DNA of 64,000 nt from Cloeon dipterum (taxonomy: Eukaryota; Arthropoda; Insecta; Ephemeroptera; Baetidae): assembly GCF_949628265.1 (NCBI RefSeq), contig NC_088789.1:34155883-34219882 (forward strand), written 5' to 3'. Positions 23,837 through 64,000 of the stretch are shown one piece after another. The position numbers and the translations under genes are program-made. The notes under the pieces are model-generated. The model had not been told where the DNA came from and searched no databases. It saw only the letters and a program-made list of their open reading frames with translations. The stretch's first letter is position 1, and each line of letters opens with the position of its first letter.

Positions 23837-24432
23837 TTACATGAGGAACAAAATTGCGACGAATGGCACCAGGAACCAAGAAATTTTCGCGGTGTGGCCG
23901 GAGTTGTAGGCAATTTCAGTGACGTTCCCCTTGCCTAGCTGGAAGGTGAGCCTCAGATCAGGGCAGTCAGCTAAAACGGTACGGATTTCGTGAATGGGAC
24001 AGTTTTAAAATTAAAAGTACATACCAGGAGCATTCAGACAGTCCAAGTCGACGTTGTTCTCGGTGAAAGAATTGACGCTGCAGCCGCATTTCAAGTGCAA
24101 TTCTTCCTTGTTATAGCAAATATTTGCATTCCGAGAGGCGTTGTGTCGGCAAATTTGGATTATTGTTTCTTCGGCTGCAAAATTATGTCTGTTAATGATA
24201 CAGTTAAGGAACGACCGTGTTTTAAATTTATTCTCTCCAGTGAAGAGGATTTGAAGAAAACATAAGTCTTTGATTTTTAAATGAATAATTTTGAATTACC
24301 ATTAGCGCCCATCTCGAGCTTCCAGCTGCTTATTTGAAGATTTTCGAACTGGAATGTAGCCCAGACTGGGTAAATAGTCAGGAGCAGGAGGAATATCACT
24401 GATGCCACGTCCATCATCTTTGGCCCCTTCAT
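23837..24432 (-). CDS. Six-cysteine surface protein, GPI-type tail (family member 1)
   Basis: Unrecognised small secreted protein. Minus-strand coding exons 24432-24300, 24174-24025 and 23970-23837; both introns are phase 1 with GT-AG ends; 138 residues. Exon 1 encodes a signal peptide (SVIFLLLLTIYPVWA) and the family box FENLQISSWKLEMGANG. Exon 2 starts AEETIIQICR and carries five cysteines including CGC. Exon 3 starts ADCPDLRLTFQLG and ends in a hydrophobic stretch (SWFLVPFVAILFLM) directly before the stop, typical of a GPI-anchor signal, after a small-residue NSGHT region. Two N-glycosylation sequons are present (NAS, NVT). An upstream ATG adds five residues compared with the paralogue at 58.8 kb; a 5' noncoding exon is likely because an acceptor (TTTGACAG) lies just upstream. 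Confidence 0.75.
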
Positions 24433-26085
24433 TCAGATCTGTCAAACATTTTTTAAGTTTGTTATTAATACACAGCATGATAAATTTTGATAATATTTGT
24501 CACCGTCCTCATAATGTAAACAAATTAAATTGCGACAATATTGGCAATGACAACGACCGGTGAAATGAATGCCAACAATAGATATCTTTATCTGACTTAA
24601 AATTATAAAAATTACAATTAAAGGCGTGCGAATGTTTTATAGTGTTCGTAATTCACCATCATTAAATGTAAATGGTTGCTTTATTTTTAAAATTTTCGAA
24701 TTTGATATTTGACAGGCTTCTTTCAACTTATTTTGCAACGGGGGGAACAGGGATTAGACTTTTGCAGGGGAAAAAGTCCATAAAATTCGATACAAGTGGA
24801 CTTTTCCGAGCGACCCGAGAAAGACTTTCGCAGCAATTTTTATTCTCTTTATGAGCTACAGTGACTTAGATTAGAATAAACAATTTTAAAAGAGGATCGT
24901 GGGGAGAAAAATCACGATTTCCTTCGTTCTTAAGTCCAATTCCTCAAAATATTCGAGATAAATCTATCCCAAAAGATAAACGACTGCGCTTTTAATTTTT
25001 AGACTAATGAGGAAATTAAAAACTTGTAACAGACCGAGATTTACGGGGTTTTAAAACTGAATATTTGATGCCTAAATGCAACAAACTGAACGCCCAGTCG
25101 ATCGTCTCGACTTCCAAACTGAAATTAATTTTACCTTTAACAAAACTCTTCCTTTTAAGTTGCAGGGAAGCCTCGAACGGCCGAATAATGATGGCGCGTA
25201 CACAAACACTCTTACTCAGCTAGCGTAATCACTGATCAGTGCAGCCACAGCCAAGACCGTGTTGAAAGTTGCATGGTTGGACTTTCGTGTAGGTAGGCTT
25301 TATATACGCAGTGACAAAAAAATAAGACTTCATGGAGTGGAAGCTCATTTAGAGGAAAAGTCTTATTTACAATTATTAGTGCAACGCGATTTTGGCCAGT
25401 TTCCATATATTTTTAGGCTCTCTAAAATAGTGCATATTTGCAGCTGTCAGTAATTAATGAGTCGCTTACTCTGTGCTCTTCGGACAGTTAAAAATTTGCA
25501 CTGAATGCTGTTGATCGTGTGTTTCTACCGACTGATGGGAGGTGGGAGAAAGCTTTTATTAGACTGAGTGAGACTTTTTTAAATAGTTATGAGAGCTGGC
25601 CGGCCTGCTGGGTGGTAAACCTTTCAGTTGCACAACATATGAAATAATTTCTAGTTCAACTAAAACATATGTGCACTGAATTTTTCTTTAATTTTCTACT
25701 AATGCCAAATAAAAATCAATGGAACTTTATGCATAATTATTAAATCTCAATTATTCAATGTTAATAACATACATGTTTAGTTATGGCAATATATATATTT
25801 ATAAAAAATCAAAGAGCAAACCTTTATAGCTATTAATTGTCTCTATCTCTAGGCCTGTGGTGGTTTCGTGTGCGGGCTGAACAAAGGTCACTGTTGCGTG
25901 AGTGAGCGAGGGTTGCACGCGAAAAATAATGCTATTCGCTGCTCATGCGATCGCCGCCGTCTGGCTGCCTGATCAGACGAGCCACGAGAACGAATGAGCG
26001 AGCTCCGAGCAAATGCAGCGCCAACACAAAAATTTAAATGTAATTAATTTCGACAAACTGTTTCTTAACATGTAGGTGTACATTT
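24433..26085. other. Intergenic spacer in the cluster
   Basis: AT-rich with a few short open frames lacking recognisable features. The upstream exon and promoter of member 1 should lie in this stretch but were not placed. A TCAGT initiator-like word occurs at about 25232, on the plus strand (GATCAGTGCAG), without a matching gene. Confidence 0.4.
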
Positions 26086-26089
26086 TGAT

Positions 26090-27030
26090 ACTATGGTGAG
26101 AAAAAACGAAACCACCAGACGCGTGCGGCGAAATGGCCCAAAAGACTCAAATGTAAGCGACGGAGTGAAAAATTATCGCCAAATTTGATATTTTTTTGCG
26201 ACGAGTAATAAAAAAGCACATATTGGTGCGGGGTTTTACTAGAGCTCACATTTTCGCTGGACGCTTGCCTAAAGGATCCATTTTCTCGTGCGTTATGGGA
26301 CGGATTGGGGATGTCTGGCCGTTCCCTTGAAGCCACTGCGCGGACACATCAGAGCCACGAAATTCCTTTGGCTGCATTTTGTGTCCAGGATCAGACCCCT
26401 CCTTGTCTGGTGGACAAGAAATTCAGTTGTCGAACGAAGAAGTCCATCGAACATTCAACCTGCGAAACCGAAAATCTGAATTAAAAATTGCATGTCTAGA
26501 TAATGACTTATGTACAAGTTAAATCGGTTGAATTCCATCTTTCGTCCTAATCCCGTCCGGAAAAGGAGTATAGTGCCGCCTCTTGTCCATGTGTGGGACG
26601 CTTTGAAAGCGCCAACAGCCGTCGGACACCGTCTCAGGTCGAGCGACCTACACAGAGGGCTTGAATTTGTCCTGATTTGTCCAGAGCGTAATTATTAGTA
26701 ACAAAACAAAAACAAATCTTGTAGGTGAGAGACTGGGAGTGGCAAAGGGCTTAAGCAAAGGAGTTTCAGAGAAATTGTAGCATTCTTGGATTTGTTTACA
26801 ATTAATATCATTTTGACCATTTTAAAATTAAAAATAACAATAACTTAATGGAAAAACCGGGAAAAACAATAACATATGCAATCAGGTATCACGTCAAGCA
26901 CTGAAGAATAGCATAAAAGATTTCTTCTCCTGTCTGTTCTCCCAACAGCAGGAGGGGCTTGCTGGGAAATGAGCCAATCAGAACATTGCTCGCCTTTGAA
27001 TTCGTTTAGCGCAACTGCGGGAACTGATAG
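26090..27030 (-). pseudogene. Degenerate second-family gene block, copy 2
   Basis: Segmental copy of 22210-23120, matching from GCGGCGAAATGGCCCAAAAG through ACGCTGGACGCTT-like, GTGTCCGACGGCTGTTGGCG and the GTTCCCGCAGTTGCGCTAAA upstream word. The coding-like stretches are interrupted in every frame, more than in copy 1. A fragment of its left end (GACTCAAATGTAAGCG) also recurs near 52440, upstream of the inverted family member. Confidence 0.4.
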
Positions 27031-27184
27031 TAGTAGAAATTATGACCCTAAAAAGCGGCTGTAGTGTGTTTAAGACGAAATATAATGCCTAAATTAAAAA
27101 AATAACAGTTTGAATTTTAATAACTAAGCTATATTTGGCAAGAAAAATTAAAGGGCGCAGCAGTCTAGCAATAATTTATTTAAC

Positions 27185-27460
27185 TGCGTGTTTTACGGCT
27201 AGAGGCTCCTAACAAGGCACACAACTTACTTACTGGAGTTAAAAGGGAAAGCACGCGGAGCACAATGAACCCAAGAACGCGAGCCAAGAAGAAATGATAA
27301 GGAAGTGATTAAGAGGTTCACGGTTCACACACTAACACGGCGGATGAAAGCGACAGATAGAGAGAAATATTGCCAAGGCCACTATTTGCTTGTTCAAAGA
27401 GTTGCCAAACTGCACGCTAGATGGCTTTGGCATTCATATTCATAGTTTCCGCTATGAATG
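27185..27460 (-). repeat. Shared upstream block of the cluster, copy at 27 kb
   Basis: Block with GAGGCTCCTAACAAGGCACAC, GAACCCAAGAACGCGAG, AGAAGAAATGA, GGTTCACACACT and TTGCTTGTTCAAAGAGTTGC, then CGCTAGATGGC. Related copies lie at 23150-23225 (end only), 28950-29200, 36830-37070, 46230-46365 and 54185-54309 joined to 57609-57670. It marks the edges of repeated segmental units. Confidence 0.65.
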
Positions 27461-27599
27461 ATTAGAAAATATTTTTTTAAAGTAATTTATTGTTGCGTGC
27501 ATAGGAGAAATTTTTACTTTTTGCCAAAAATCTGTTATTCAATTTTAAATTTTACACGTAACATTTAATGCAGCGCCAGTGCAACTTTTTTCGACCATA

Positions 27600-28060
27600 A
27601 ATCCCTATCTTCTCTGGTAAAAAAACCGTGAATTTCAGCGCCAAACCCAGCCGATCGACGCCTCTCGGCGCGAAATAAAGTGTCGGGTAGTGAAAATCTC
27701 CTCCGGTTCATAAGTGAATTAAGAAAAAATCAGAAGAAAATTTTAAAAATCACGTGGATTTTTGGGGCATTTGGAGGCGGCGGGGGCGGGAGGGGATGGT
27801 AATGGTGGCTAACGCACGCAGAATTTTACGGTGATTCCAAGCAACATTGGTTTTTCACTCTACAACCCATAGGCGCCGAGTTATTAAATTTTAAAGTCCA
27901 AAAAACGCGGTTTGTGACACTACACATTTTTTGTTTTCGGGGCTCGGTCGGAGCCCTGTGGGTCGGAGGCTGGTGATTTTAGTTTCAGTCGACGCCTCTT
28001 GGTGGGGCACGTTCACCCGTGTCCAGCTTTAAAAAATCGGATCATTTTTCGAATTACTAT
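27600..28060 (-). repeat. Dispersed repeat family A, inverted copy
   Basis: Reading the minus strand, the words of repeat A appear in the usual order: an ATCCGATTTTTTAAAG-like start, GGCGTCGACTG, AAAAAATGTGTAGTGTCAC, TCGGCGCCTATGGGTTGTAG and a CGTAAAATTCTGCGT end. It is more diverged than copies 1-3 and extends further. Confidence 0.55.
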
Positions 28061-28604
28061 GAATTTTTTCGACGAAAAAAGGAAAAAATTATTAAACTTT
28101 GACCAGAAATATTCCCGGATAGTGCCAATTAATTTCTCTATTATTTCTCCTCGCGTGTGCGGCTTGGCTGGTCCTTTCCGCGCACTCCCACTCACTCAGG
28201 CATACTGTACTTTTTACCTGTTCTCGCTCTGCCCATTCAGTCAGGTACACGACTGTCAAGGTCGTCTGCAGGTTGCTGGCCCACTCTTGAGCCCGATCTG
28301 CCACAACACAGGCGCCTGCAGACACAATAATAAAAGGTATTGCGCGTGGCCGCTCCCAAGAGAAACCGTTTTATGTATAAAATTGGCCGTTTATAACTAA
28401 AAGAGACGTTTTGGTGTATTCCCCGCCCTAAAACGGATTTTTCCCCATCACTGATTGGCACTTCACACCCCCAAGTGCGGTATAACATCCATTCCGAGGC
28501 GGCTTTATGTCGTCGGCTCTCGGGCTAGCAGATGGTTTCCTGACTACTGCTGCCTTATTCGAGTTGCCTCTCTTTTACCTTGCCCGCAAATCCTATTCCT
28601 GCGG

Positions 28605-28735
28605 CGTACTGTATAAAAAGACACCCGCCGCGACGGAGAGTTTAATGAATATATGACTCATCGACGGGAAACGCTCTGGGCTCTGCAATAAGGAGCTGTG
28701 TTCTAGAGTCCGTCGTGTTTCGTGTTTGCAGTAGG
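28605..28735 (+). promoter_or_regulatory. Core-promoter-like segment with TATAAAAAG
   Basis: TATAAAAAG at 28612-28620 lies in a locally GC-rich segment, with AATAAGG at about 28687 and a possible acceptor TTTGCAG at 28724-28730. The combination resembles a promoter plus poly(A) site as in a lone long terminal repeat of a retroelement, but no second copy or terminal repeat was found, so this is only a candidate. Confidence 0.25.
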
Positions 28736-28949
28736 AGTGTGGGGCTGTAAAGAGAATTCATATTATTCAATCAAAATACCAATACAAAAGGATTCGATTA
28801 TTAGATCTAGACAAGTTTTAATAACTAATTTAAAATTCAACTGGAGGGTTCAAAATTTATTATTATTGACAACAGTTGTAACAAACTTAAACACGCAGCA
28901 AGCGCTATGGCGATTTATTTAAATCTATAACTGAGGTTTTTCCGACAAC

Positions 28950-29200
28950 GTACACGCTCCTATAATCCTAACGAGGCACACACAACCAATGCCGGTTTGC
29001 TCCATGGCCTTGGAGTTAAAAGGGAGCACGATGAACCTGATTGTGAGAAGAGAGGATGGAATTTGGCGGGAAACACGCGTTCACACAGCGCAGGACAGAG
29101 AGGGAAATTATGCCGCGGCCATCTTTTATTGTTGCTTGTTCAGAGAATTGCAAAACCGCTCGCTAGATGGCTACATCATTCATAGTGGACACCATTATGT
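28950..29200 (-). repeat. Shared upstream block of the cluster, copy at 29 kb
   Basis: Shares CCTAACGAGGCACACAC, GGAGTTAAAAGGGA, GAGCACGATGAACC and TTGCTTGTTCAGAGAATTGC followed by CTCGCTAGATGGCT with the 27-kb copy. No gene is seen in it. Confidence 0.6.
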
Positions 29201-29389
29201 GTATTGTACGAAGTTAACTTACAATTATTATTGAATTTTGTTCACAGGAGAATTCTTTATTTGACTCGCATTTCAGTATTTACTTTTGGCCTATAATAAA
29301 ATGGGCGCGTCAACTTATTAAAATTATAAACATAATCTGACTAATTTAATTGAAAAATAGATTTAAAAAAGGCGATCAGTGAATACTAA

Positions 29390-30860
29390 TATGGGGTCAA
29401 GAGTCACTTATTGAGGAGATCAAAAATGGCAGGAAGGGAAACTACCTCCATTTCATGTTTCCTGGCAGAATGTCATGGACGCATGCGTCCAATAAGCAAA
29501 CCCGTGTGTTGGCAGTGTGCATTTTGCTTTTCTTATAATTGCAGGTGCGGAACGTTGACTGGCTAGAGGGGAGGGTGCAAAAAATGGCGATGAATTTCAT
29601 CTATATGGAGGATATGGCAAATAAATTGATCTAAAAAAGCAACTAAATTTTGCATTACATTTAACTCATTTAACCCTGAGCTTAACATGAAAAAAGTGAT
29701 GCAGAATGAATTAAAATAAAAATGTGCCAAAATTGGTTTTGTCAATTCGATTTCAAATTTGCCTTAAACCTCACTGTCAAAATTTAAATCATACACATAT
29801 ACTTGTATAGTTGCATATTTCTCTTTATTGCATGTCAAAAATGATTCTAACAAAGGAAAAATGACTAATATGGCCATAAATTACATAACTGCAGTTAAAA
29901 ATGAACACAGAATAGACTTTGGAAATTTAAGTTAATTGTTAGTGTGACTGTCTAGGCTGAATTAGGAGTAACTGGTAAGCAGATCAAGGCATAGGAGTGA
30001 TGCTGCTCGACGCAGAGATCAGGAAACCGTCTGCTGCTGGTCCAAGCAGGCGGAAGCCATCTTGAAACTAGAGGGGGTGGATACGTGACACCACCAAGGG
30101 TGTCACGTGCTCTATAGTCAGTGAATGCAAAAATACATTTTCGAGGACGCTAAATCTACTTGAAGTTAAACAGTGGTCTATTGACAATTAAGGAAAAATA
30201 AAGAAAGGCCAATCAAATTATATATTTTACACTACAAATATAAAATGAGGTTCTTTGGTAGAGTTTGCAGGCGCGCGTTGGGGAAGAGAAGAGTGTCGCG
30301 ACAAGTGGGTCGGCCACCTGCAGACGGCCTTGACAGTACCTGACTGAATGGGCTGATGGTTGAGCGAAGAGAGAAAGAGTGAACCTGAGTGAGAGTGTGG
30401 AAGGAGCACACGCCAGACAAAACCATATAATGGACGCGAAAAAAAACTGAATATTTTGGCGATTTGCTTAGGAACATTATTTGTTGATCTTTTTATAAGA
30501 TCGAAAATATATTTGGTTTATATAGACTACGGCATTAATACAACAAGTTGTATAAGCCCTTAGTGTTTGAAGCCGCCAATATAGATGGTGCCACAGCGTA
30601 TACTTTGGTAACAAATTTAATTTTAATTCATTTCCCACTACGATTTCTGACTCACTCCTGCCACTTTGCATTCTTCACTTAATATATGCTTTCTTTTGAC
30701 GTCCTGAAAACCAAAATCGGTAAAGCCATTCCTTTTAGTACTGTCAAGGTCATCATCGCGAGATTAAAATGTCCTTCAGGTAAAAAAAAAGATTTGAAAG
30801 AAAAGATGGCTACACGAAAGAAGAATTGCGTCCTTGAAAGTACTATTGGCTCTTGAGCTC
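29390..30860. other. 3' flank of family member 2, with shared blocks
   Basis: Noncoding. A piece at 29395-29480 (GGGGTCAAGAGTCACTTATT) matches 37205-37270, a piece near 29650-29700 (CATTTAACCCTGAGCTTAAC) matches 37555-37580, the 3' block recurs at 30010-30220, and 30250-30460 (CAGACGGCCTTGACAGT) matches 38660-38815. These ordered matches show that the 29-32 kb and 37-40 kb regions are copies of one segment. Confidence 0.6.
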
Positions 30861-30874
30861 ATCATTAAACTATT

Positions 30875-31734
30875 TCATTTGACGTTTTGCCGCCACTTCT
30901 GCATGCAATAAGAACGCACTCGGGCTCCGTACTTGGCTTCAAAACTCATTCCAACAATGAAACAAAAGATGCCAAAAACGGAAAAAGACAATATCGGAAA
31001 GTTATTCTGGTCTTTTCTGGTTGCTGGAATTTTTTCAGCGTGTGATGGCATCTCGAAGGAGCCTTGATGCAACTTAAAGTCCAGATTCCCAGGGCACCAA
31101 CCTAATCAAAAAATCAGAATTTAATTTAAAAGCTTATATTTTACAATTATTTACTTGAATTGTTGTTGCAGATGAGAACCAGATCTCCAGTCTGGTTGTA
31201 ATGGACGAAGCAATTGCACACCTCCGTAATGTCTGTTGAGGTGGCCTTTGGAAAATTTTGGCATTGTGTTCCGCCGCTTGTCCCGTTATACTTGCAAAAG
31301 TCGTATTTCAGTTCTTTTGCTGCAAAATTGCACGGGTTATATCAGTTGAAAACATTGCTTTCATGGGTAAAATGCAACATTTGATCGATCTAAAATTCAA
31401 AACAAAAGCTTAAAATATTATTGAATTGGAAAGGGGGTGCGCAATATCCGATTTTATAGTGAGCGATGCAACTGCGGCTAGCGGCAATCGTACCAAAAGT
31501 TACAACATTTCATTTTTATTTATTCAAATATAAGAGTCATGCAGTTTATTTGATCTTACGAAATTTTATGTTGGTTTTTTAGGAAAGAATAAAACGCATT
31601 GTTAATTTTCACCCACCATTTGCTCCAAACAGTATAACCCAGTTGTCGATTGATTTGTCTTCAAACTCGATCTCGGCATCGTGTGCGTGTCCGGAGTTGA
31701 GGAGGAAAAACATCAAAATCAGAACCTTTTTCAT
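30875..31734 (-). CDS. Six-cysteine membrane protein (family member 2)
   Basis: Family member with a transmembrane anchor. Minus-strand coding exons 31734-31617, 31319-31155 and 31101-30875, phase-1 introns, 169 residues. Exon 1: signal peptide (MKKVLILMFFLLNSGHA) and family box FEDKSIDNWVILFGANG. Exon 2: AKELKYDFCKYNGTSGGTQC, then CNC and a final cysteine; sequons NGT and NQT. Exon 3: SWCPGNLDFKLHQG, a polar stalk, a hydrophobic helix near residues 129-148 (FPILSFSVFGIFCFIVGMSF) and a basic tail (RVRSYCMQKWRQNVK). Outside-in topology with a short cytoplasmic tail is predicted. Exon 2 is very close to that of member 3 at 39.7 kb. Not recognised as any named family. Confidence 0.75.
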
Positions 31735-33030: not shown

Positions 33031-33037
33031 ATATTTG

Positions 33038-33145: not shown

Positions 33146-33149
33146 TAAA

Positions 33150-36820: not shown

Positions 36821-36829
36821 ATTTGAGAC

Positions 36830-39251: not shown

Positions 39252-40189
39252 TTAAGCTCTTTGATCTCCTTCACGGTTTTGTTCATTTGAAGACCCGTTG
39301 ACGTATTGACGCCACTTTTCAGTGCAATAAGAACGCACTTGCTCTCGGTACTTGACTAACACTCCCACAATCAAACAAACGAGGACAATAAGGGGCAAGG
39401 ACAAGTACAGAAAGTTAATCTGGTCTTGTTTGGAAGCTGAAATTTCTTCAGCGCGTGATGGCTTTTCGGAGGGGCCTTGCTGGTATTGAAAGGCCAGCTT
39501 CTTGGGGCACCAGCCTAATTAAAAAAATTGGAACATACTTAAAATATTATATTTTCCAATCATTTACTTAAATTGCTGCTGCAGTTGACGCTGAAAGATA
39601 AGGAGCCAGCTTCGGTTTTGTTGTGTTGGACGGAGCAATTGCACGCCTCCCTAATGTCTGTTGAGGTGGCCTTCGGAAGATTTTGGCATTGTGTTCCACC
39701 GCTTGTCCCGTTATACTTGCAAAAGTCGTAAAGCAGTTCCTCCGCTGCAAAATAGGACGGCTTACATCAGTTTAAAACAAATTTTAGAAGAAAAATGCAA
39801 CCTTTGATATCAAATTTTGTCAAAGAATAGGCTTTAAAGTGAATAAAATTGAATTGGAAAGGAGATGCGCATAACCGATTATTTATTTCTGTATTGGTTT
39901 ATGCTACTTGGACCATCCAATGATAAAAAATATGAGGCCATTTAATTAATTGTTAATTTTGTTACACAGATACACCAGAAAAAATCTCATTTATCGCAGT
40001 TCTATAATCTGCCACGCCCTTCTCTTAATTTGCTAAAATAGGTGAACTTTACTAACCATTTGCGCCGATCAGCAGTTGCCAGTTATTCGCGGCCTTGTTT
40101 TTAAACTCAATGGAAGCAAAATTCGACAAAGGAAAGGCGACGCTGAGTGGGAGAAATAGTGTCAGAAGGAACTTTATTTCTTGACCCAT
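39252..40189 (-). CDS. Six-cysteine membrane protein, long tail (family member 3)
   Basis: Minus-strand coding exons 40189-40057, 39744-39568 and 39514-39252, phase-1 introns, 190 residues. Exon 1: MGQEIKFLLTLFLPLSVAFP signal peptide and box FKNKAANNWQLLIGANG. Exon 2: AEELLYDFCKYNGTSGGTQC, CNC, VNC, with NGT, NCS and NKT sequons. Exon 3: SWCPKKLAFQYQQG, a polar stalk, a strong hydrophobic helix near residues 138-158 (YLSLPLIVLVCLIVGVLV), then a basic cytoplasmic tail (KYREQVRSYCTEKWRQ) ending REGDQRA. Exon 3 is almost identical at DNA level to that of the inverted member at 53338-53702, pointing to recent duplication or gene conversion. Function unknown. Confidence 0.78.
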
Positions 40190-46826: not shown

Positions 46827-47714
46827 TTAAATTGCCAGGTCTCCATTGGTTTCACGCATTTTGGAACAATGCTTTTTCCACAAATGCCATCCAACGTAGC
46901 ACCATGCAACATTGTAAATCATCGACAGGGCCAGAAAAATGTTAAGCATTAATTTAAGTGTACTGTCGGCACTACTGGCGTGTTCGACTTCTGAAAGTGC
47001 ACCTTGCTGGATGCTGACAACGAATTTTCGGGGACAGTAAGCCACTAAAAAAGAACAAGTTACCAATTTAAACTCTATATTTATGCAAAATATAAATTCT
47101 CTTCTTACTTTTTGGGTTATTGCACTTGATGACGACGAGACTGAAAGAGTCATCAAATACGTTGTCTGTTTGAGGACGACATCCGCACTCTTTTTCCAGT
47201 TCGACCTCGTCTTTGCACTCTTCCGGGCTGTTCATTGTGGCGTTCCGTGTGCAATATTTGTAGTGAGTCTCCTCTGCTGCAAAAATTATTAGGAATGTTA
47301 AAAACAAATTGGTCGGGTAAACAGGGAAATATCATTGCAAAATTTACGCTTTATTGCTTTTCATGCTTTAGTGCAAATCGAACGCATGCAGTGTCAGAAG
47401 AATTTATATGCAGCCTCGCCCCTCGATGCAAATTCCGCTAAGTGAAAAGGTCAATTTCAAATTGATGTAAAATATAAACAGCTATAACTACACACTGAGG
47501 AGACACTGCATTTAATTTCTCCTGGCAGGTAAAATGATACGTTGAAAGCGTTTAAATTGTTCTTACAACTCCCCGCGACGTATATTGCCGTGTAGCTGCT
47601 TGATAGGTCTTCAAATTGAAAAGGTGACACGGATGCAGCATCAGTGTAGGGATTGAAGATCAGCACCAAAAATAAAGATGCTAAGATGGACGTGACGGCA
47701 TTGATTGTCTTCAT
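46827..47714 (-). CDS. Six-cysteine membrane protein (family member 4)
   Basis: Minus-strand coding exons 47714-47567, 47276-47109 and 47044-46827, phase-1 introns, 177 residues. Exon 1: signal peptide MKTINAVTSILASLFLVLIF and a diverged family box (FQFEDLSSSYTAIYVAGS). Exon 2: SEETHYKYCTRNATMNSPEE, then CKDEVELEKECGC, with cysteine spacing 11, 9, 1, 18. Exon 3: MAYCPRKFVVSIQQG, hydrophobic helix around MLNIFLALSMIYNVAWCYV, and a short basic tail (GWHLWKKHCSKMRETNG). The donor of exon 1 (AGTT then GTAAGA) shifts the junction residue from Gly to Ser compared with members 1-3. Closest relative in the window is member 7 at 62 kb. Confidence 0.75.
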
Positions 47715-52600: not shown

Positions 52601-52719
52601 ATCAAACTACTTTTTCATTATGACTCGCTCTCTTGATGTTTCGTCAGAAAATAATAATTTTTTCGAATAAAAACTATATTTCTAATTTTCAAAATTTCTT
52701 TAGAAAGAGGTGCCACGAA

Positions 52720-53702
52720 ATGAATTTCCTGCTGACATTTCTCCTGCTCAACACCACCTTTTCGTGGTCGAATTGTGCTTCCGTTGAGTTTGAGAACATG
52801 TCCGAAGACAACTGGCAACTGCTCATCGGCGCAAATTGTATGTAATGTGTTCACCTTATTTTATATTCGAATATTTTTATATTTTTTAACAAAATTGTCG
52901 GTTATTCGATTTTAAACGCTCTCAAAATGCTGAAATCCTGATGATCCGAGTAACGTAACCAATACAGAATTAAATAATGGACCTTCCATTCAATATTATT
53001 CACTATTTAGCTTAACTGTGTCTTTGAAATTTGAGATCGAATATAGAAATTTTCCCACGAAAAGAATGTTTTCAACTGCTGATATCATTTGTACTATTTT
53101 GCAGCAAAGGAACTGAAATACGACTTTTGCAAGTATAACGCGACAAGCGACGGAACACAGTGCACAAATTTTGAAAAGTTCGCCTCAACAGACATTGGCG
53201 AGGTGTGCAATTGCTCCGTCCAACACACAAAAACCAAAGCTGGCTCCTTCACTTTCAGCGTCAACTGCCTCAGCAATTCAAGTAAAATAATATTTGATAA
53301 TAAATTTTTAAAGTAACTTCAAATTTATTAATTTTAGGTTGGTGCCCCAAGAATCTGCTCATTCAATACCAGCAAGGCCCCTCCGAAAAGCCATCACACG
53401 CTGAAGGAATTTCAGCTTCCAAACAAGACCAGATTAACTTTCCGTACTTGTCCTTGCCCCTTGTTGTCCTCGTTTGTTTGATTGTGGGAGTGTTAGTCAA
53501 GTACCGAGAGCAAGTGCGTTCTTATTGCACTGAAAAGAGGCGTCAATACGACAACGGGTCTTCAAATGAACAAAACCGTGAAGAAGATCAAAGAGCTGAA
53601 CAGTCAGTCGCTTTCCAGGATTTTCCAAGTGCGTCTTTCGTCCGACCCGTCCAACTCCCGAAATTTAACATGGTTCTTTTTCGACTTGATTATTGGGTGT
53701 GA
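52720..53702 (+). CDS. Six-cysteine membrane protein, long tail, inverted copy (family member 5)
   Basis: The only plus-strand member. Coding exons 52720-52837, 53105-53281 and 53338-53702, phase-1 introns, 219 residues. Exon 1: MNFLLTFLLLNTTFSW signal peptide, box FENMSEDNWQLLIGAN. Exon 2: KELKYDFCKYNATSDGTQC, CNC, VNC, sequons NAT, NCS. Exon 3: SWCPKNLLIQYQQG, polar stalk, hydrophobic helix (YLSLPLVVLVCLIVGVLV), KYREQVRSYCTEKRRQ tail, then a further 30 or so residues (EQSVAFQDFPSASFVRP and on) beyond the point where member 3 stops. An acceptor (TTTCTTTAG) just upstream of the start implies a 5' noncoding exon. Exon 3 is nearly identical to member 3 in DNA. Confidence 0.78.
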
Positions 53703-54775: not shown

Positions 54776-57099
54776 AATTCATCTTACCACAATGAGAATT
54801 ATTACAAAATTATGTACCCTGTCGAAACATTGAAAAATAATAACGATAAATGAATAAAAAATGTGGTTTTCTTGTCAAAAATATAATTTGTTGAATTTTA
54901 CAATTCAACGTCCTTCAAATATACAGGAATCCATGAAAGAGACACCTTGACCGATACTTCATGTTAATAATATCATAAAATTGCCATAAAGAAGTTAAAT
55001 TAATGCATCAACCACGATGAAATGAGTAAGTGAGTAATGCAACATAATTTCTGGAAACTAGTAATACTTATATCTGATCTAAATCAAGATTTCTAAAAGT
55101 TTCAATTCAATTATTCTCTTCCTGGAGACTTAAATGTTATAAATTATATTAGAATTAAGTACATTACAGATATTTTTTAGATTTATTATTCACTAAAAGA
55201 AATAAATAATTTCTCTAGTGCGTTAACCCCGAGCACGGAGGTTGTCTGTTCACGTCTTGATTTTTCACGCACCCCCAATCCCCCAACATCGCATCAGTCA
55301 ATTCATTACTGCCGATGCACACAAAAGCGGTCGTCTGCAAAGGAAAAGTCTGACCAGCGGACTTCTTCTTTAATTGTGAAGCAGCGCGCTATTTTTTGCT
55401 TCAAAGAAAACAAGGCTATTAAAAAATATACATGCAACAATTGCGTTTACGTTAAGAAATAAAAATTATTTTGATATTTTGTGGAAGTATTTATTTTGAT
55501 TTTTTTAATAAAAAATGATATTAAATAATAGATTTGTGTGCTGTTTCGATAAATTTAAGAGTGTGAAACGGTCAATGCCTAGATAATTCCATTATATATT
55601 TTTACTCTCTAAAGTATTAACTCGATATATGGATTTATACATATATATCGATTTATAGAAAATATGCCTGCACGGCCAAATAGCAAAAAAAATCTTTGCA
55701 ATAAAATAATAGCATATGCGGCAATGTCATTATTTTGCAAAATATGGTTATTGCTATCTGCGAAAAAGATTGACCGCACATCGCACACTTTGTGCAATGG
55801 AAAATAATGGAATCACTCGGCTCTCAATAGCCATGCAGCAGCTGCGAGAAGCGAGCACACAGAGCTCATCAGCCGCTGCAATGGGTCTGTGTCTATAATT
55901 AATTATTTTTCCGATTAAGCTCGCGAAGATTTCGACCAGAGGAACATTTTTGGAAAGAACGAAAAATTGTCTTTAACTAGGTGCTAATTTAGATCGAGAG
56001 CGTTGATTATGCCAAGAGGGCAGCGGCTGACCTTGACCTCTTGAGGGCTTTAAAATACATTAAGTCCAAACTACTCGTGAAATCGTACATAAACTGACCT
56101 CAATGGTGTCAATCCGTCTATTCGTTGCAAAATTATAAAGCCCAAAAGCTGCACGTCTTTGTAACGTTTTTAGTACATTTTAAATTTATTTAAATTCAAC
56201 TAACAACTGAGGGGGAAAATCAACGGTTGAACAAACTTCCAGAATTTTTGAGCTGCGTGCAGTATTTTTCATTAGCTATTGCATCAACAAAAACGACTAA
56301 TTAAATACACATAAATTATAAAATTGTAGTTTAAGTCTAGATCTTTGCTTTTTTCGGAAAAACTCGTAATGAACTTTTCTATCAAGAAGTGTTTTTTATC
56401 TTGTGTAAAATAATCATTGCTTAAATTGTATGAGGGAGCGAAATAATGAAAAAAAATTAAATGTTATACCGACTTTGCTCTTCTCGTACAAGCCCACGTC
56501 GATTCATTCAAGAGTGCGGCCGGATTTTATTTTGCGCCAGATCGATATATTTTTTCGGTTCTAATTGGCGTAAACGCTCTGGTCTTGAAAAAATACAGTT
56601 CAACTCTTAGTTGAGAAATTAATTGGTCATGAACAATTTTCCGCTAAACTTATTATTAACCGAGATATTAATTAAAAACACCAATTTTACAATATTTAAA
56701 ATATAAAATCAACTAAAAATACGACAGTTGTTTAACTAGTAAAAATATATTGCCTTCATTGATCTGGAAATTACCAATGTCAAAAGAAAATTTTGATCTA
56801 AATATTTCCATTTTTTATTTTTTATTTAAACTTCGAACGCAAGAATATCAGTTCCTTCCTGATATTTTTACGGTTCAGATGTCGCCATTCCACTGCGTTT
56901 TACAAATATAAATAAATGTATACTCAATTATCGTTTCGTACGATTGCTAACTTTTTAAAATCGATTTTAATTTAGAATACTGGTGTACGGCACAAATTTT
57001 CCCGCGCTCGATATTCGATTTTTGTGGATGAGAAGCCAAGAGCGGTTCTTTCGTGATTTTTCACGCACCCCCTGCATCGCGCCAGTCAATGCATTATTG

Positions 57100-57594
57100 T
57101 CAAAGCACACAAAAGCGGTCGGCTGCAAAGGAAAAGTTTGACCTGCGAGCGACTTTTTTAATTGTGAAGCAGCGCGCCCCCTTTTGATGCACAGCCTAAA
57201 TATGTGCACGGGCTAAACACCCTCGATCGGAGGGTGCTGCGTTGCAAGCTCGTCTCGCGGTCACAGTTGAAGCGAGTGAACGGCAACTTGTGACACGCGG
57301 CAATTGTGCCCTAAGTAAAATTTTCAGAATTTAATTAACTAACAATAAGGGCAGACTCGATTGTCACGTTATTATCTTGATATCAACACACATTTTAAAT
57401 ATATTTGATGCGAATTAAGCAGGAAATCAACGATATTGTAAGCAAATTTTTTTTATTTAAAGTAGCATTATATTTAGGCCACAACCACCCTCGAAAGACC
57501 CTCCCTAAAGACGAAACCCTGATGCCACACTCCTCCTCTTCCCACCATTTTAACTTAGGTCACAGTTGCCGCGGGTCACAGTTGCCTGTCACTC
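57100..57594 (-). repeat. Right terminal inverted repeat of the 3.3-kb transposon
   Basis: Inverted partner of 54310-54775. On the plus strand it ends GGTCACAGTTGCCTGTCACTCG. The repeated GTCACAGTTGCCG word occurs twice at each end, a subterminal repeat that may be a binding site for the transposase. Confidence 0.75.
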
Positions 57595-57949
57595 GAAAGG
57601 GATGAGGGACTGGGTTAGCGGCTCACGCACTCAAACAGCCAACGAAGGAGCAGGCAGTGAAAAGAAAATAATTAAAATTTTGGTATAGCGATATGAAATT
57701 TATTGGTGCAATTAAATTGTCAAGATATAATTTTGCATACTGTTACAAGACGGAGGTAATTGTTACATATTGAAAAGCAGGCAGTGTACAGTACAAACAA
57801 TACAAAAGAACCTTTCATTCGTTAGTGCAATAGTTTAATAGCCATGCATACGGCTGGTTGTAGTTCAATTCAAACAGATAATAGTATTTCATAATTTTAC
57901 ACTGATAAATTTTGGTTTGTTTCTAAAAATCAACCACAAACACGCAAGA

Positions 57950-58200
57950 GAGGAGAGAGGAATGGAATTTTAATCACGAAATTGGCCATTTTCAGGTGCC
58001 GACGTGACTTTGATAATAAGGCGTCAATTTTTTATGTGTTTGGCAAGGCAAAAGAAAAGCAGGGTGTGTCACGTGCCAGACAGTATAAGCGATTGAAAAA
58101 ATAAATTTCGGGGCGTGGAAGACGCCAAGCAACTTTAAGTTGAAAGGCGCTCGCTCAAAATAAACGCAAAATTAAGGAAAATGGCCAATTTTATGCATTA
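57950..58200 (-). repeat. Shared downstream (3') block, copy at 58 kb
   Basis: Matches 23470-23800: AGAGGAATGGAATTTTAATC, GACGTGACTTTGATAATAAG, GGGGCGTGGAAGACGCCAAG and GGCCAATTTTATGCATTATT in order, directly downstream of the gene ending at 58217. Confidence 0.7.
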
Positions 58201-58216
58201 TTCCAGTCCATACTGT

Positions 58217-58837
58217 TTACACGAAGAACAAAATCACGATGAGTGAGATGAATGGACCCAGGAAGCAAGTAATTGTGGCGGTGTGGCCGGTGTTGCTGGC
58301 AAGTGCAGCTTCAGTGGGCTTCGCAGTGACGTTGCCAAGCTGCAAGTTGAGACTCAGATGCTGAGGACAGTCAGCTAAAATGAAAAGGGTTAAGTTGGAA
58401 AATATTTTAAAAATAAAATTATTTACCGAGCGAACTGTGACAATTGAGGTTGCCTTTGTTCTCGTCGGTGGGAGAAATGGTGCAGCCGCACTTTGAAACC
58501 AATTCAGTCAGATTTTTACAATGGTTTTCATTTCGGGTTTCGTTTTGCCGGCAAAACTGGACTATAGTTTCTTCCGCTGAAAAATTATTTCTCGTTATAA
58601 TGATAAAGAAAAACACTCATAAAAATGACGACTCATTTTCTCCCGTGAAGCGGATTTCAGTCGTGCATTTCATGAATTCTTAAATCAATAATTATTTAAA
58701 TTTATACCGTTGGCCATCATCTCGAGTTTCCAGTTGTCGATTCGAATATTTTCGAACGGGCGGAGTGTCGCACCAGCTGATTGTGAGCAAAGAGTCAGCA
58801 GGACCAGGAGGAGAGCAAAAAACGCACAGCTCAACAT
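58217..58837 (-). CDS. Six-cysteine surface protein, GPI-type tail (family member 6)
   Basis: Minus-strand coding exons 58837-58708, 58576-58427 and 58374-58217, phase-1 introns, 145 residues. Exon 1: MLSCAFFALLLVLLTLCSQS signal peptide, box FENIRIDNWKLEMMANG. Exon 2: AEETIVQFCRQNETRNENHC, CGC, LNC; sequon NET. Exon 3: ADCPQHLSLNLQLGNVTAKP, a Ser/Thr/Asn stretch, then a hydrophobic end (TCFLGPFISLIVILFFV) at the stop with no basic tail, as expected for a GPI signal. Closest paralogue is member 1, with matching exon lengths (exon 2 is 150 bases in both) and matching 3' flank. An acceptor-like GTGAAACATTTT... CAG lies upstream, so a 5' noncoding exon is likely. Family function unknown. Confidence 0.77.
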
Positions 58838-59009
58838 CTTTGGTGTTGTCAATCGGATCTGTGAAACATTTTTACAATTTATTTGTTACTCGGTATATTT
58901 TTTTCAAATATACACAAATTAAATTGCGACGAAGTATAATGCAAAAATATAGACAGTCACAACGTCCCGTGAAATTAATTCGCACGATAACTAACCGATA
59001 TTTTCCCTA

Positions 59010-59340
59010 AGCAGATACCCCAAAGGTTTTTGGCCGCCGGCCCACGGGGCCCCGGGGAGTCCCCTCTTTGCAAGCGGCTTCCCTAAGCTCGCGGGTAAAA
59101 AAATCGCCAACACGGGGCGGATCGGGGCGAAACCCGGGTGGTCGACGCAGGGTCGCCCACGAACGCGTTTTCAGGTGTGCAAGCCCGGATTCCTCCCATA
59201 GGCGAATTTTAAAAAAAAATAAAACCAAAAAAGGCTTTTTCGACGCTCACAAGGAGGCAGTGGGGGTGCGGGGGAGCTGAGGGGTTGAAAACTAGCCCAC
59301 CACCCGCAGAATTTAACGGCGAGTTCAGCGAACACCGGTT
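59010..59340 (-). repeat. Dispersed repeat family A, GC-rich inverted copy
   Basis: On the minus strand the usual order can be followed: GGCCCCGTGGGCCGGCGGCC, AACCGGTGTTCGCTGAACTC and GCCGTTAAATTCTGCGGGTG. This copy and its right flank to about 59470 are far more GC-rich than the other copies and the surroundings. A TTTTTTTTTATTTT-type A/T run lies inside. Confidence 0.5.
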
Positions 59341-59479
59341 TTAGCCCGCAGGTCCCATAGCGGCCGAGAGCCGGTTTTCTTGGCGTTTCCGGCGCCGCAG
59401 GCGCCAGCGCGCCCTCGCCCGGCGGTCGCCGCCCGCGATCGGCTTTGGGGGCGAATCCGAGTTTGCCCCCAACTCCTAA

Positions 59480-61100
59480 TTCAAGTGCGAAGCGCTTGTG
59501 AATTACAGATAACACAGATACAGAAACACTGTCAGATTGAAAGATGACAGGAGGGGGAGAAAGGAGTGAGAATGAGAATGCGACTTTTTGGAGCTTCTAC
59601 TCTCTGCTCATCTGCTCCTGAATTCTGAACTTCTTGCTCAAGGCCGATTGTTCCTGGTTGCATAATGCATTGTCACTTTTGTTTCGTTCGCATTCGCACT
59701 TGCAGTTTGCATGTTCAATTTCGAAACGCACGAATTATTAGAATTACATAAAAGTTGCGGGTTTTCCGAGTCAACCCGCACTCGCACTAAACCGCACTAC
59801 GCCTACATTACACTCTAACATTAGATTTCAACTTACATGAATTTTTCCTTTCAAAAAGCAAGCGCTGTATACTGAGGGAGCTGAAACGGACTAACAGCAG
59901 CGGCGGCGCACAGCACGAACACTGTTGCCTCAGTCAGTTATCTTGGAGCTAGAGGTGTGACGTTGAGTGCGTCATTCCACGCCAAGCCTAGAGAGGGGAA
60001 CCGGGATGTTTTTGGCGCGAAATGTGACCTTTTCGTGGTTAAATTCAGTAAAATATGTGGAAAACTCAAAATTGGTGAAATTTTCCAAATGGTATTTTGA
60101 GGGGTGCGTTTTTGCGCATTATAAAATTGACAAACCCTGGTCAAAATGCATAAAAATCCTAAAAATTAACGATACTCCAGACATCATTAGGGCATACAAG
60201 AAAAAATAATCGATAGTTTGTTTAGCACAACACCCTATATATATATAGCAAGAGCCAACCCGCACCCGCAATCCGCCATTTTTGTCCAGATTTGCAAAAT
60301 CTGGACCCGCACCCGCGGGTTTGGTGCGGGTTTTGCGGGTTCAACCTAGTGCTTTGCGAGGGTCGCGGGTTCCCTTCCTATAAATAACGCGCTCGTCGTA
60401 CGCTGCCGCGCCGCGCCTGCTCGTCAGAGCTCACACATTATTTGCGTGGGGTGAAGAGTAGTGTGAGACTTTTGAAAAAGTCCTACTTGAAGATAGGTAT
60501 ATAATATACTGTAGTACACGACGGATGAGGATGAGGGATTGGTCAAAACCGCGCGTATAAAAATTTTTTACTCATGACGTCATGAGTCAACACGCGCTTG
60601 ATTAGGCCCAGCAGTTCAAAGTGCATCAAAAATACTCTGCAGCGCGGACGCGGACTCCTTCGTCGTGCATTAATTCTGTTCTGCCCATTCACCTCTCGCA
60701 GCACGTTATTACTGTTGGGCTACCATCAAGTCGAACAGCTGATCCAAAAGGTCTCTTATTCCTCCTGACAAAAGAGGATCTTTGCGCCCGGCAGCAGACA
60801 TTATGTGAGAGAACGACGTACTGCTTCAAAAGTAAAGCGCCGCAGAAAAATACAGCTGCCTTTTCAGCATTCCTTTGCCGCGCGATATTAATTTGCTTGG
60901 TTCACCAACGAAGAGGAAAAAGCAGCAATTTAAATTTATCAGCGGGCATAGTACATCACGTTCGGTACTTTTAGAGCCAAATGTTTGAGCGCGAAAATAA
61001 AAGATAACGATCAGGCCTTGTCATAAATAGAATCATCGCACATATAGTTATAAAATCACAGGTTTTATCGCTTTAATTCAATTCAATTAACAAACATAAG
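59480..61100. other. Intergenic with GCGGGT/ACCCGC-rich patches
   Basis: No supported gene. Repeated ACCCGCACCCGC and GCGGGTTTGGTGCGGG words lie at 60258-60345 around an inverted CCAGATTTGCAAAATCTGG palindrome, with related words at 59755-59800. Small open frames (59967-60209, 60621-60974) have no recognisable features. A TCTGCAGCGCG patch and short TATAAAAA (60556) are present without a gene. Confidence 0.4.
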
Positions 61101-61109
61101 ACCGTTCTT

Positions 61110-61245
61110 TTTACAACACAAAAACCTGCTAAGCGGAACACGCGCTTGCGATATCTCTTAATGCAGATGCAGACAGCTTATTCAGTTCATAAAAAAGTTG
61201 TCTCCGGGCCAAAACATGACACACGCGCGCGCGCGCGCGCGCAAG
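61110..61245 (-). repeat. Dispersed repeat family B, copy 3, with CG dinucleotide tract
   Basis: Diverged copy of repeat B: AAAACCTGCTAAGCGGAAC, CAGTTCATAAAAAAGTTGTC and CGGGCCAAAACATGACACA. It ends in a pure CGCGCGCGCGCGCGCGCG tract (about 61221-61243), where the other copies have GT or CA repeats. Confidence 0.55.
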
Positions 61246-61804
61246 GTATAAATATAAACACTTGATTCTGCTAATCTGCTTAGCACGCTGTCAAGTTTTT
61301 ATCCTTTCCGCCTCTCTAATATATGTTCAAGTAAATTTGCGATTTGTTTGGAGATTAAAAGTCAAAATAATTCCCGAGCAATTAGCAAAAAATATTGAAG
61401 CAGCTCTCGGCCTTGCCCTTTTCCTTCACGCCTCGGGTCATGAGATGGAATTAAAAGTATTGAAATTGTTGAAGAAATGCTCCAATAATTATACTCAGTC
61501 ATTCGCTTTCTGCTCTTTAGGTCAAGAAAATGGAAAATAAAATCAAGAGATTTTGCATGAAGAAGAGGTTGCTTTTTATTTAGTTTATTGCTTGAAAGTG
61601 AATATCTATAAATTGAAATTGGCTGTGAATTACGTTCCTCTGAACGAGACTTTGATAGAAACCGTAACAAAAGTAACAACTTTGGTCTTGAAGAGCGACC
61701 TCTGGCATAGTGGAAAGATGATTGGTGCTGCGTTGGGATGTTTCGGTACAATTTCATGCACTTCGTACCGATAATTCATTGCACAAATGCCTTCCAAAGT
61801 TGCA

Positions 61805-62592
61805 CTAAACAGCGTTGAAAATTGTTGTCATCAGCACTGCCAGCAAAATGCTATTAAGAGTTGGAAGCGTGCTGGCGCTGGAGAAACTGACAGAGAAGTG
61901 TTCGGGACAGTAAGCCACTAAAAAAAAGAAGAAGCAAATAATTGAAACTCTTTATCCAATATATAAATATACTCTTCTTACTTGTGCGGTTATTGCATAT
62001 GATCAAGACGGAATCGAGAGCGGGATCAGATACGTTTTCTGTTTGAGGACGACATCCGCACTCTTTTTCCAGTTCCACCTCGTCTTTGCACTCTTCTGGG
62101 CCGTTCGGTGGGCAATAGTTGTACAGAAGCTCCTCTGCTGCAAAAATTATTAGAATTGTTAAAAAACAAATGGGTCAACAGGGAAATATTGTCATTGCAA
62201 AAGTTCACACTCTGTTATTTAAGCTTTAGTACAAATTGAACGCATGCAGTGTCAGAATAAGAATTTATATGCAGCCTCCTCGGTTTTTACATTGTCTCTC
62301 AAAATGCAAATTAAGTGAAAAGGATATTTGTGACAAAATCTGTAAAATATTGAAACATAAACTACACACACTGCGAGAGGCAACTGCATTTAATTTCTGC
62401 TGGCATCAGGTTCATTGGTGTTGAGAGCGTTTAAATTTTCTTACAATTGTTCGACATGTGTAGTACCGCGTAGCTGCGTGATAGGTTTGCAAAGTGGGCA
62501 AATTGAAATGGCACGGGTGCAGCATCAGTAGTGTAGGGATTGAAGATCAGCACCAAAAATAAAGATGCAAAGATGGCATTGATTGTCTTCAT
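61805..62592 (-). CDS. Six-cysteine protein with truncated C-terminus (family member 7)
   Basis: Minus-strand coding exons 62592-62445, 62137-61982 and 61917-61805, phase-1 introns, 138 residues. Exon 1: MKTINAIFASLFLVLIF signal peptide; the family box is weak. Exon 2: SEELLYNYCPPNGPEECKDE, VELEKECGC, IICNN. Exon 3: MAYCPEHFSVSF, a deletion of the stalk relative to member 4, then a hydrophobic end (NSILLAVLMTTIFNAV) and TAG at 61805-61807. In member 4 the homologous frame continues into a tryptophan-rich basic tail; here the stop falls right after the helix, so the product would resemble a GPI-signal or tail-less protein. Either a functional variant or an early pseudogene. Confidence 0.6.
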
Positions 62593-63800
62593 CCTCTTCC
62601 AATTGCGTTTTAGAACTCTCTCTGGAACATAGAATCACAATCTGAACTTACTCTTAATCGTCTCACCGAGACCAAAAATAAATTTCACTCTGCCATGTAA
62701 TTTCAAAGCGTACGTGAAGATAAATCATTTTAGATCAGTGACTCTCAGACCTTACATATAATTGTTAATTAGGATGTTTGAAAAGCAAGTGGATTCGCGG
62801 TCCTGCTGCAGAGAGTTTGCGTTGGGGCGGATCAGAAATAAAATTACAACTTACATGGTACGTTTGCTTGCTTTCGTGGCTGTCTGTCTCCCTTTGTGGC
62901 AACGCACTGACTGACACCGCGGAAAATCGCACTTCGCTTTTTATATCAACTCCAGTGCGATCCGATCCGTCAGCCACCGCCCTCGCATCTCTTCTAGATT
63001 CATACAAATCCAAGAAGTTGCCGCATTTGTTTCAACCGAGTAGTTTTTTTCGTTTTCTTTGAATGCCAATTAACATACAGAATTTTAGTGCGCCTAATGA
63101 GCTATCAATTTAAATAATATTTAATTCAAAATCAAACCCACAAAACGCGGGAAAGAAATAAACATGTAAAAAATGAGACAAGCGCGTCTCTCTCACTATT
63201 TTTAACCCGGAGAGCTGCTGAGGGAATATATCGCATTTCTGAGTGTACGAATTGCATGAATAACAGTTTCGTGTTTAAATGAAGCAAACAGATTAAATTA
63301 AACATCGAATCCTTTTTTAAAAGCACCTCCTCGTCGGTTTGGCGCCACAAAAGCGGTTTATATTTGAGCAACACGAGATGGCGAAAATATCAACGGGCGC
63401 TGGCTCCGATTTCAATCTGCATTGAACCATTAAAAGAGTTAATTAAGAGGTGACGCACACGTGTCGTGAATATTACCAACAGCAGAATCCATGCTGTTTA
63501 TAGAAAAATTCACCTCTTCTAAATTCACGGTGCGTCAAAACCGTGAAATTTGTTTTGTTCAAAAATACATTTAAATAATTTCTAGTGAACGAATTCCGAG
63601 GCAGGCATTTAATTCTATCCCCAAAAGATACATAAATATTTATAAATTATTATTTTACACCAATTATAGTTTGCGAATTTTGGAATTGACTCAATTACAA
63701 GTAATTGTTACAACGGCAAAACCCAAAAGTAATACTTTAAGTTAGTTCAACGTTGCAACTGTCCGGTGCTCGATTGACGTTAATGGCCATGCAATTCTAT
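62593..63800. other. Spacer between members 7 and 8
   Basis: No supported gene. Short open frames at 62778-63062 (plus) and 63132-63374 (minus) show no recognisable features. The left part repeats sequence upstream of member 4 (CATAGAATCACAATCTGAAC versus CATAGAATTACGAGTTGAT). Confidence 0.4.
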
Positions 63801-63805
63801 GCTTA

Positions 63806-64000
63806 TTATTCTAGTCCATAAGACCATATTGCCAATCCAATTACACGTTTGATCAGAAACACGATTAACGAAATTAGGAAGAGTGCCAGAGATAGACACA
63901 AGAACCAAGTAATTATTGTCGCGGTGTTGCTTGCAGCAGTTTCACTGAGCTTCGCGGTGACAGCGCCTTGCTGGAAGGTGACACTCACAATCAGATCCTG
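63806..64000 (-). CDS. Six-cysteine membrane protein, 3' exon only (family member 8, partial)
   Basis: The last exon of a further member, cut by the window edge. On the minus strand it enters as QDLIVSVTFQQGAVTAKLSE, then a Ser/Thr/Asn stretch, a hydrophobic helix (WFLCLSLALFLISLIVFLI) and a short basic tail (KRVIGLAIWSYGLE) before TAA at 63806. The TFQQG and AVTAKLSETAASNT words align with members 1 and 6, but the anchor is a transmembrane helix with a tail rather than a GPI-type end. Upstream exons lie beyond 64000. Confidence 0.65.
   Translation of the reverse strand, partial: QDLIVSVTFQQGAVTAKLSETAASNTATIITWFLCLSLALFLISLIVFLIKRVIGLAIWSYGLE

Follow-up and report, generated by a model that had tools for sequence, protein, structure and literature searches.

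In the 64,000-nucleotide stretch of Cloeon dipterum DNA analysed here (assembly GCF_949628265.1, contig NC_088789.1, positions 34,155,883 to 34,219,882; in the following the window), we identified the left end of an array of genes for small six-cysteine proteins, a family whose existence is practically certain and which extends far beyond the window. Its members share three coding exons and a predicted type I single-pass topology, two of them carry ankyrin repeats behind the membrane segment, and NACHT-ankyrin genes are found in the genomic neighbourhood. Taking these features into account, we tentatively propose, with a probability of about 0.38, a family of type I surface receptors evolving by birth and death, whose most likely role would be recognition linked to immunity of the NLR type or to cell death.

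Gene models and extent of the family

Seven complete three-exon genes of the family lie in the window (g24, g31, g39, g47, g52, g58 and g62; Table 1). With splice sites chosen by hand, all 14 of their introns run from GT to AG in phase 1, and each gene encodes a signal peptide followed by an ectodomain with six cysteines and a single segment predicted to span the membrane. Phase-1 introns and signal peptide had thus been recognised correctly in the first-pass annotation, a reading of the letters of the window without database searches. It had counted eight three-exon genes, the last of which contributes only its exon 3 to the window; exons 1 and 2 of this gene (locus L022) follow in the genome beyond the window edge, bearing out the three-exon design. 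When both strands of the window were scanned with exon profiles, which contain the window's own members, seven exon-1, seven exon-2 and eight exon-3 matches were returned. The lowest score among the true matches was 19.4 bits, for g62 exon 3, compared to next-best scores of 8.2, 9.1 and 12.0 bits for the exon-1, exon-2 and exon-3 profiles and best scores of 10.4, 6.7 and 8.1 bits, respectively, in a reversed-window control.

Six family proteins were used as queries against the complete assembly (10 contigs, 190 Mb), which yielded at least 46 exon-2 loci, a lower bound obtained by merging the search results by hand. C4, the contig of the window, holds 31 of them, C2 holds 14 and C5 a single one. 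The single cluster of eight members assumed at first is therefore only part of a family spread over three chromosomes. The C4 array covers 223 kb from 34.18 to 34.40 Mb, the C2 array is found at 35.74–35.97 Mb and the single C5 gene at 29.33 Mb, which places the arrays at 34.2–34.4 of 36.4 Mb and 35.7–36.0 of 37.5 Mb of their chromosomes. Forty of the 46 loci were read (7 in the window and 33 others), the remaining six being C2 loci, and in 31 of the 33 further loci exon 2 is flanked by AG and GT at the exact phase-1 offset. Models were built for 38 loci, 30 of which reach from the start through all of exon 3; five of the 30, namely L047, L048, L051, L061 and L062, entered the alignment, cysteine, hydropathy and dN/dS (ratio of nonsynonymous to synonymous divergence) analyses with incomplete tails, and 22 form the alignment used for profile searches. 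In the family tree, exon 3 is represented by its first 22 residues alone, so that incomplete tails are without effect. Four C2/C5 sequences come together in one clade (support 100/99), with weak support for the position of the C5 gene inside it.

Protein anatomy and domain searches

The cysteine pattern C-x10/11-C-x9-14-C-x-C-x12-20-C-x6/7/11-CP fits 28 of the 30 models, the exceptions being L059, in which the second cysteine is replaced by tyrosine, and g62 with a first spacing of 7. The pattern proposed originally is hence retained, with wider spacings before the fifth (x12-20) and sixth (x6/7/11) cysteine. Five cysteines are encoded by exon 2, a phase 1-1 module, and the sixth by exon 3. 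Throughout the 22 aligned members the start methionine, the F of the exon-1 box, all six cysteines and the proline following the sixth are invariant, while W38, G43, E48, L116 and G123 (numbering of the first sequence) are nearly so. The exon-1 box itself, originally written FEN-x-W-x-L-x-x-GANG, holds up for its F, but among the window genes W occurs in five of seven and GAN in four of seven. Its final G, as well as the supposedly fixed A in an AEE or AKE start of exon 2, turned out to be artefacts of a reading that runs on over the splice sites: the codon shared between exons 1 and 2 encodes S in g47, g52 and g62 and A in the other four window genes.

A hydrophobic 19-residue segment with a mean hydropathy of at least 1.55 was found in exon 3 of 29 of the 30 models, L054 being the exception (0.84). 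Many models continue into a short basic tail, absent from g24, g58 and g62, and the listed frames of family exons do not exceed 222 codons except in the two ankyrin members. From the sequence we infer the topology, glycosylation and presumably three disulfides.

For the ectodomain no strong match to a named domain was obtained. A Pfam scan of 22 members, among them both ankyrin-bearing ones with their tails cut, found no family in more than two members, and the best match (APD1-4_N, E 0.0062, in one of the 22 members) was dismissed as chance. The same applies to other matches at loose thresholds, which were scattered (best E 0.029; NCBIfam best 0.0063), no NCBIfam family occurring in more than one member at a best E of 0.0063. 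Against PDB sequences there was no match at E 10. The idea that the C-x-C...C core represents a degenerate leucine-rich repeat (LRR) N-cap is unsupported, as neither Pfam nor PDB sequences gave a match. Exon 2 folded alone gave models of moderate to poor quality, with a predicted local distance difference test score (pLDDT) of 71.4 with the g24 sequence first and of 54.8 with g39 first; the model at 71.4, the only one compared, showed no fold match in the PDB. The initial view of a clustered family of surface-type proteins sharing no Pfam, NCBIfam or PDB-sequence match is in agreement with these results, and no description of the family appears among the matches listed from the open-access literature, which leaves aside subscription papers and preprints.

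Ankyrin-tailed members

In one of the genome searches, exon 3 of two members, L063 and L064, was found inside frames of 733 and 465 codons. The pair of loci maps to C4:34225184 and C4:34296663. The membrane segment is followed by a variable linker and then, judged by eye, by about 15 and 8 ankyrin repeats; Pfam assigns 13 and 7 Ank stretches, with Ank_2 E-values of 5.2e-129 and 4e-116. The whole proteins comprise 827 and 571 amino acids (aa), and the frames are open throughout. Over 296 codons the ankyrin parts share 81% identity, with a dN/dS of 0.59 (rough z of about 2.1 versus neutrality), compared to 31% identity over 140 codons and a dN/dS of 0.67 for the part of exon 3 preceding them. 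The ectodomains of both members form one clade in the family tree (support 98/94). L063, the 827-aa protein, displays a second hydrophobic stretch after the repeats (mean hydropathy 2.36 at residue 799), which is missing in the 571-aa member.

Sequence evolution

The 22 pairs of lowest synonymous divergence (dS) among the 30 models show dN/dS values of 0.64–1.22, in line with the rapid variation noticed in the first pass. Sister pairs from four groups were compared by site class: dN/dS is 0.15–0.37 at ectodomain positions conserved in other clades, whereas mid and variable sites range from 0.58 to 1.28; a small class of gap-rich sites behaves erratically (0.52 to 5.14). From this contrast between site classes it follows that a scaffold is under constraint and the rest of the ectodomain is nearly free or diversifying.

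Nine pairs were aligned including their introns, and identity often jumps between adjacent segments. L013 and L014 share 96% identity in intron 1, 63% in intron 2 and 94% in exon 3. For g39 and g52, located on opposite strands 13 kb apart, exons are 79–95% identical compared to 61–64% for introns and 45–52% for flanks. In L058/L061, the intron 1 sequences agree better (94%) than those of exon 2 (87%) and exon 3 (79%), and g47/g62 is more even (66–83%). These jumps seem to reflect exon-wise gene conversion, which is suggested for g39/g52 since DNA identity in exon 3 reaches 95% while introns and flanks lie far lower.

NACHT, ankyrin and caspase genes around the arrays

A search with the ankyrin tail, in which 76 of 652 candidates were scored, marked at least 121 places, many of them in single frames of 900–2700 codons at 29–36 Mb of C4, with further matches on C1, C2 and C5. 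Two genes located 230–250 kb beyond the C4 array, L071 and L073, contain NACHT domains (31.6 and 29.1 bits, cut-off 26.7) in the same frame as their ankyrin matches (2060 and 2454 codons), and each has one upstream frame with a caspase domain (28.8 and 29.9 bits, cut-off 21.4). Four other upstream frames of the checked NACHT genes gave no credible Pfam match. For the NACHT-ankyrin gene L070, a shorter piece had no Pfam match and a longer upstream piece gave a NACHT match. Compared with PDB chains, the NACHT piece found no match and the caspase-like piece found weak caspase matches (best E 0.024).

The NACHT region in turn gave 164 matches in the genome and, taken by hand, at least 101 loci among the matches listed, for two of which the full Pfam make-up was checked. 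The listed loci crowd at 29–36 Mb of C4 and 0.8–4.7 Mb of C2 and are also found at 36.7 and 42.2 Mb of C1 and elsewhere. The C4 array itself contains two NACHT frames of 325 codons and a degenerate copy. All three sit 3' of a same-strand family member, at distances of 1.1, 3.0 and 1.0 kb. A frame of 1683 codons from the NACHT search follows 5.6 kb past the array end. By eye, caspase-like frames precede at least one of the in-array NACHT frames. It was also considered whether NACHT and caspase sequences might be extra exons of the family genes; what follows downstream of L048 and L057 looks by eye, short of proof, like separate caspase-NACHT genes. The nearest listed NACHT locus is 1.3 kb from a family exon on C4, 117 kb on C2 and 239 kb on C5.

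At least 101 listed NACHT loci, many of them giant single frames with ankyrin repeats, is a large number for an insect. A termite transcriptome report (PMC3712931) mentions one NACHT-WD40 sequence and eight 'NLR-containing' sequences. Among the matches listed from the open-access literature, within the limits given above, no expansion of caspase-NACHT-ankyrin genes in an insect was found.

Proposed function and alternative explanations

NACHT and ankyrin genes of this kind serve immunity and cell death in other animals. We propose a model in which tandem duplication and, apparently, exon-wise conversion would have enlarged the family in this insect, giving rise to small type I single-pass receptors with a signal peptide, an ectodomain presumably stabilised by three disulfides and one membrane segment. 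The variable ectodomain would bind a microbe, a parasite or another non-self structure at the cell surface, the two ankyrin-tailed sister members would pass the signal inward as signalling or scaffolding forms, and the short-tailed members could act as co-receptors, decoys or ligand-binding variants. Judged from topology, constraint pattern and tails, surface receptors whose variable ectodomain binds an outside ligand, with ankyrin forms that signal into the cell, are a likely interpretation. Surface recognition would then feed NLR-like immune or cell-death signalling, which we consider most likely in view of the NACHT loci close to the arrays; a link to NLR-like proteins is what we infer from this proximity and from the shared repeat type. 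It should be noted that the family, its predicted topology and exon design, the ankyrin tails and the neighbourhood can be read directly from the sequence, and that what we suggest here about disulfides, ligand and ligand binding, expression, function and a part in immunity is an interpretation of it. The roles in immunity, reproduction and sensory perception that the first-pass annotation had named as equals are no longer equal, as ankyrin tails and NACHT/ankyrin neighbourhood tilt the balance, short of proof, to immunity or cell death. A further extension appears unlikely to us: a two-tier system in which fast-evolving six-cysteine receptors, some with a Notch-like ankyrin tail, would work with about 100 intracellular proteins of the NACHT-ankyrin type, perhaps by ankyrin-to-ankyrin docking or docking to shared partners, in immunity or self/non-self cell death, the NACHT-ankyrin partners being caspase-linked in the two checked genes.

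Several observations weigh against receptors coupled to NLR-like signalling. Ankyrin tails were seen at only two of 46 loci, and synonymous divergence between L063 and L064 is 0.18 in the ankyrin part versus 1.05 in the preceding part of exon 3; the repeats were therefore probably copied or converted between the two members after their split, and may not have been kept since the duplication. L046 and L053 fail the splice test and appear broken. Positive selection, looked for by pairwise and site-class dN/dS, was not shown, the ratio not being clearly above 1. Caspase-like frames lie upstream of the NACHT frames, and splicing between the two is putative. The NACHT copies in the C4 array may have arisen through the same duplications as the six-cysteine genes around them. 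Both arrays lie near chromosome ends, which gather duplicates of many kinds, and 5.8% and 9.7% of the genome are as near to a listed NACHT gene as the family exons on C2 and C5, respectively. The product of these fractions is 0.0056 (the length of C3 in this calculation being estimated), but the independence behind it is doubtful on account of shared ancestry and chromosome-end clustering, and C2 and C5 are not clearly independent since the tree places the C5 gene with those from C2.

The same chromosome-end position is the basis of a rather doubtful alternative, according to which the family comprises ordinary non-immune surface proteins of adhesion, epithelium or developmental signalling, and the NACHT proximity is a by-product of duplication-prone chromosome ends. 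It is in line with the crowding of listed NACHT loci in the C4 and C2 regions named above, with the short listed frames of all but the two ankyrin members and with one ankyrin tail being possibly a recent copy of the other; however, two members retain open ankyrin tails at a dN/dS of 0.59, and a fast, low-constraint ectodomain is unusual for adhesion or developmental proteins. Fast evolution by duplication would instead be expected of reproductive recognition, that is, of gamete or mating-fluid surface proteins, whose usual marks are a dN/dS near 1, a tandem array and small cysteine-rich ectodomains. We nevertheless regard this as improbable, since the 22 scanned members contain no reproductive domain and neither ankyrin tails nor NACHT neighbourhood give a reason for such a role.

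Big tandem families under weak constraint are also typical of insect chemosensory genes, and the proteins could be membrane proteins with an accessory part in chemosensation, in juveniles or in adults. This we consider quite improbable: the five odorant-receptor matches and one match to odorant-binding proteins (OBPs) in the genome all lie away from the arrays, in an exon-wise search that is insensitive and recognised few such exons. Highly improbable, finally, is a decaying family consisting mostly of relics with few working members, as might be read from the dN/dS of about 1 in close pairs, the two broken loci, the cysteine lost in L059, the stop directly after the hydrophobic segment in g62 and the L058/L061 pair with its intron 1 more alike than exons 2 and 3. 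Exact splice phases in 31 of 33 further loci, the cysteine pattern in 28 of 30 models, the low dN/dS at sites conserved in other clades and the excess of exon over intron identity in g39/g52 all argue for maintained genes. An insect genome with at least 101 listed NACHT loci, some of them interleaved with a receptor array, would allow direct tests of how NLR-like immunity arose in insects and what it is used for.

Other features of the window and genome

Just upstream of the array, at 17.5–19.5 kb of the window, lies an ITP/CHH neurohormone gene. On the minus strand at 3521–3964, a weak trypsin-like match (PF13365, 19.6 bits) stays below its cut-off of 27.6. Whole-genome, exon-wise searches found at least one OBP (PF01395) and at least five odorant-receptor (PF02949) exon matches above cut-offs, both lower bounds; for Cloeon dipterum, 191 OBPs are reported (PMC7250882).

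Table 1. Six-cysteine genes and other mapped features (window positions unless C4 is stated)
Feature	Position	Strand	Exons	Protein	Remarks
g24	23837..24417	-	24300-24417, 24025-24174, 23837-23970	133 aa	splice-consistent model, phase 1/1; genome match L024; hydrophobic C-terminal end, cytosolic tail absent (hydropathy)
g31	30875..31734	-	31617-31734, 31155-31319, 30875-31101	169 aa	one predicted membrane segment
g39	39252..40189	-	40057-40189, 39568-39744, 39252-39514	190 aa	
g47	46827..47714	-	47567-47714, 47109-47276, 46827-47044	177 aa	forms a divergent subfamily with g62
g52	52720..53702	+	52720-52837, 53105-53281, 53338-53702	219 aa	
g58	58217..58837	-	58708-58837, 58427-58576, 58217-58374	145 aa	without cytosolic tail
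g62	61805..62592	-	62445-62592, 61982-62137, 61805-61917	138 aa	stops directly after hydrophobic segment; first Cys spacing 7
Eighth member (L022), exon 3 only	about 63806-64000	-			cut by window edge; coordinates derived from L022 range; profile match 63848-63985, 31.7 bits (profile includes L022)
ITP/CHH exons	17768-17878 and 19339-19440	+			PF01147, E 3.8e-19 and 1.7e-7
In-array NACHT copy	C4:34246895-34247770				in L078
In-array NACHT copy	C4:34350472-34351374				in L079
In-array NACHT copy	C4:34357518-34358030				

Comparison with known systems

Small, disulfide-rich, membrane-anchored proteins that often occur in tandem clusters are known from the Ly6/uPAR three-finger family. The present family, however, has no Pfam match, its six cysteines are spaced differently from those of Ly6 proteins, whose pattern ends in CN, and it has a conserved F and a nearly conserved W before the cysteines and a P after the sixth. 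As already stated in the first pass, the pattern is also unlike EGF or CHH: the C-x-C is formed by the third and fourth cysteines instead of the fourth and fifth as in EGF, again without Pfam match, and no PF01147 match to CHH/ITP neurohormones was found in the 22 members. Insect odorant-binding proteins differ likewise, as no PF01395 match was found in the 22 members and 29 of 30 models have the hydrophobic exon-3 segment.

The two ankyrin-tailed loci of the 46 resemble Notch-type receptors in being type I single-pass proteins, according to hydropathy-predicted segments, with a cysteine-containing ectodomain and cytosolic ankyrin repeats. In contrast to Notch with its many EGF repeats, the family has one small six-cysteine region, no EGF or LNR match was found up to E 10 in the 22 members including both ankyrin-bearing ones, and the longer ankyrin member has its second hydrophobic stretch at the C-terminus. 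With the NLR-like NACHT-ankyrin genes, the family shares the genomic neighbourhood and, in the tails of two members, the ankyrin repeats; it is nevertheless a separate, membrane-bound family, since the 22 members scanned gave neither a NACHT nor a caspase match.

In its many copies and cysteine-containing ectodomains, the family is comparable to expansions of SRCR and C-type lectin receptors, from which it differs in showing no SRCR or lectin match and an ectodomain without Pfam or PDB-sequence match. Lineage-expanded surface receptors are reported from sponge and sea urchin (PMC10855680) and from bivalves (PMC10140915). Such expansions are a known kind of system, while the fusion of the present ectodomain to cytosolic ankyrin repeats, as in the two members from Cloeon dipterum, is unusual.

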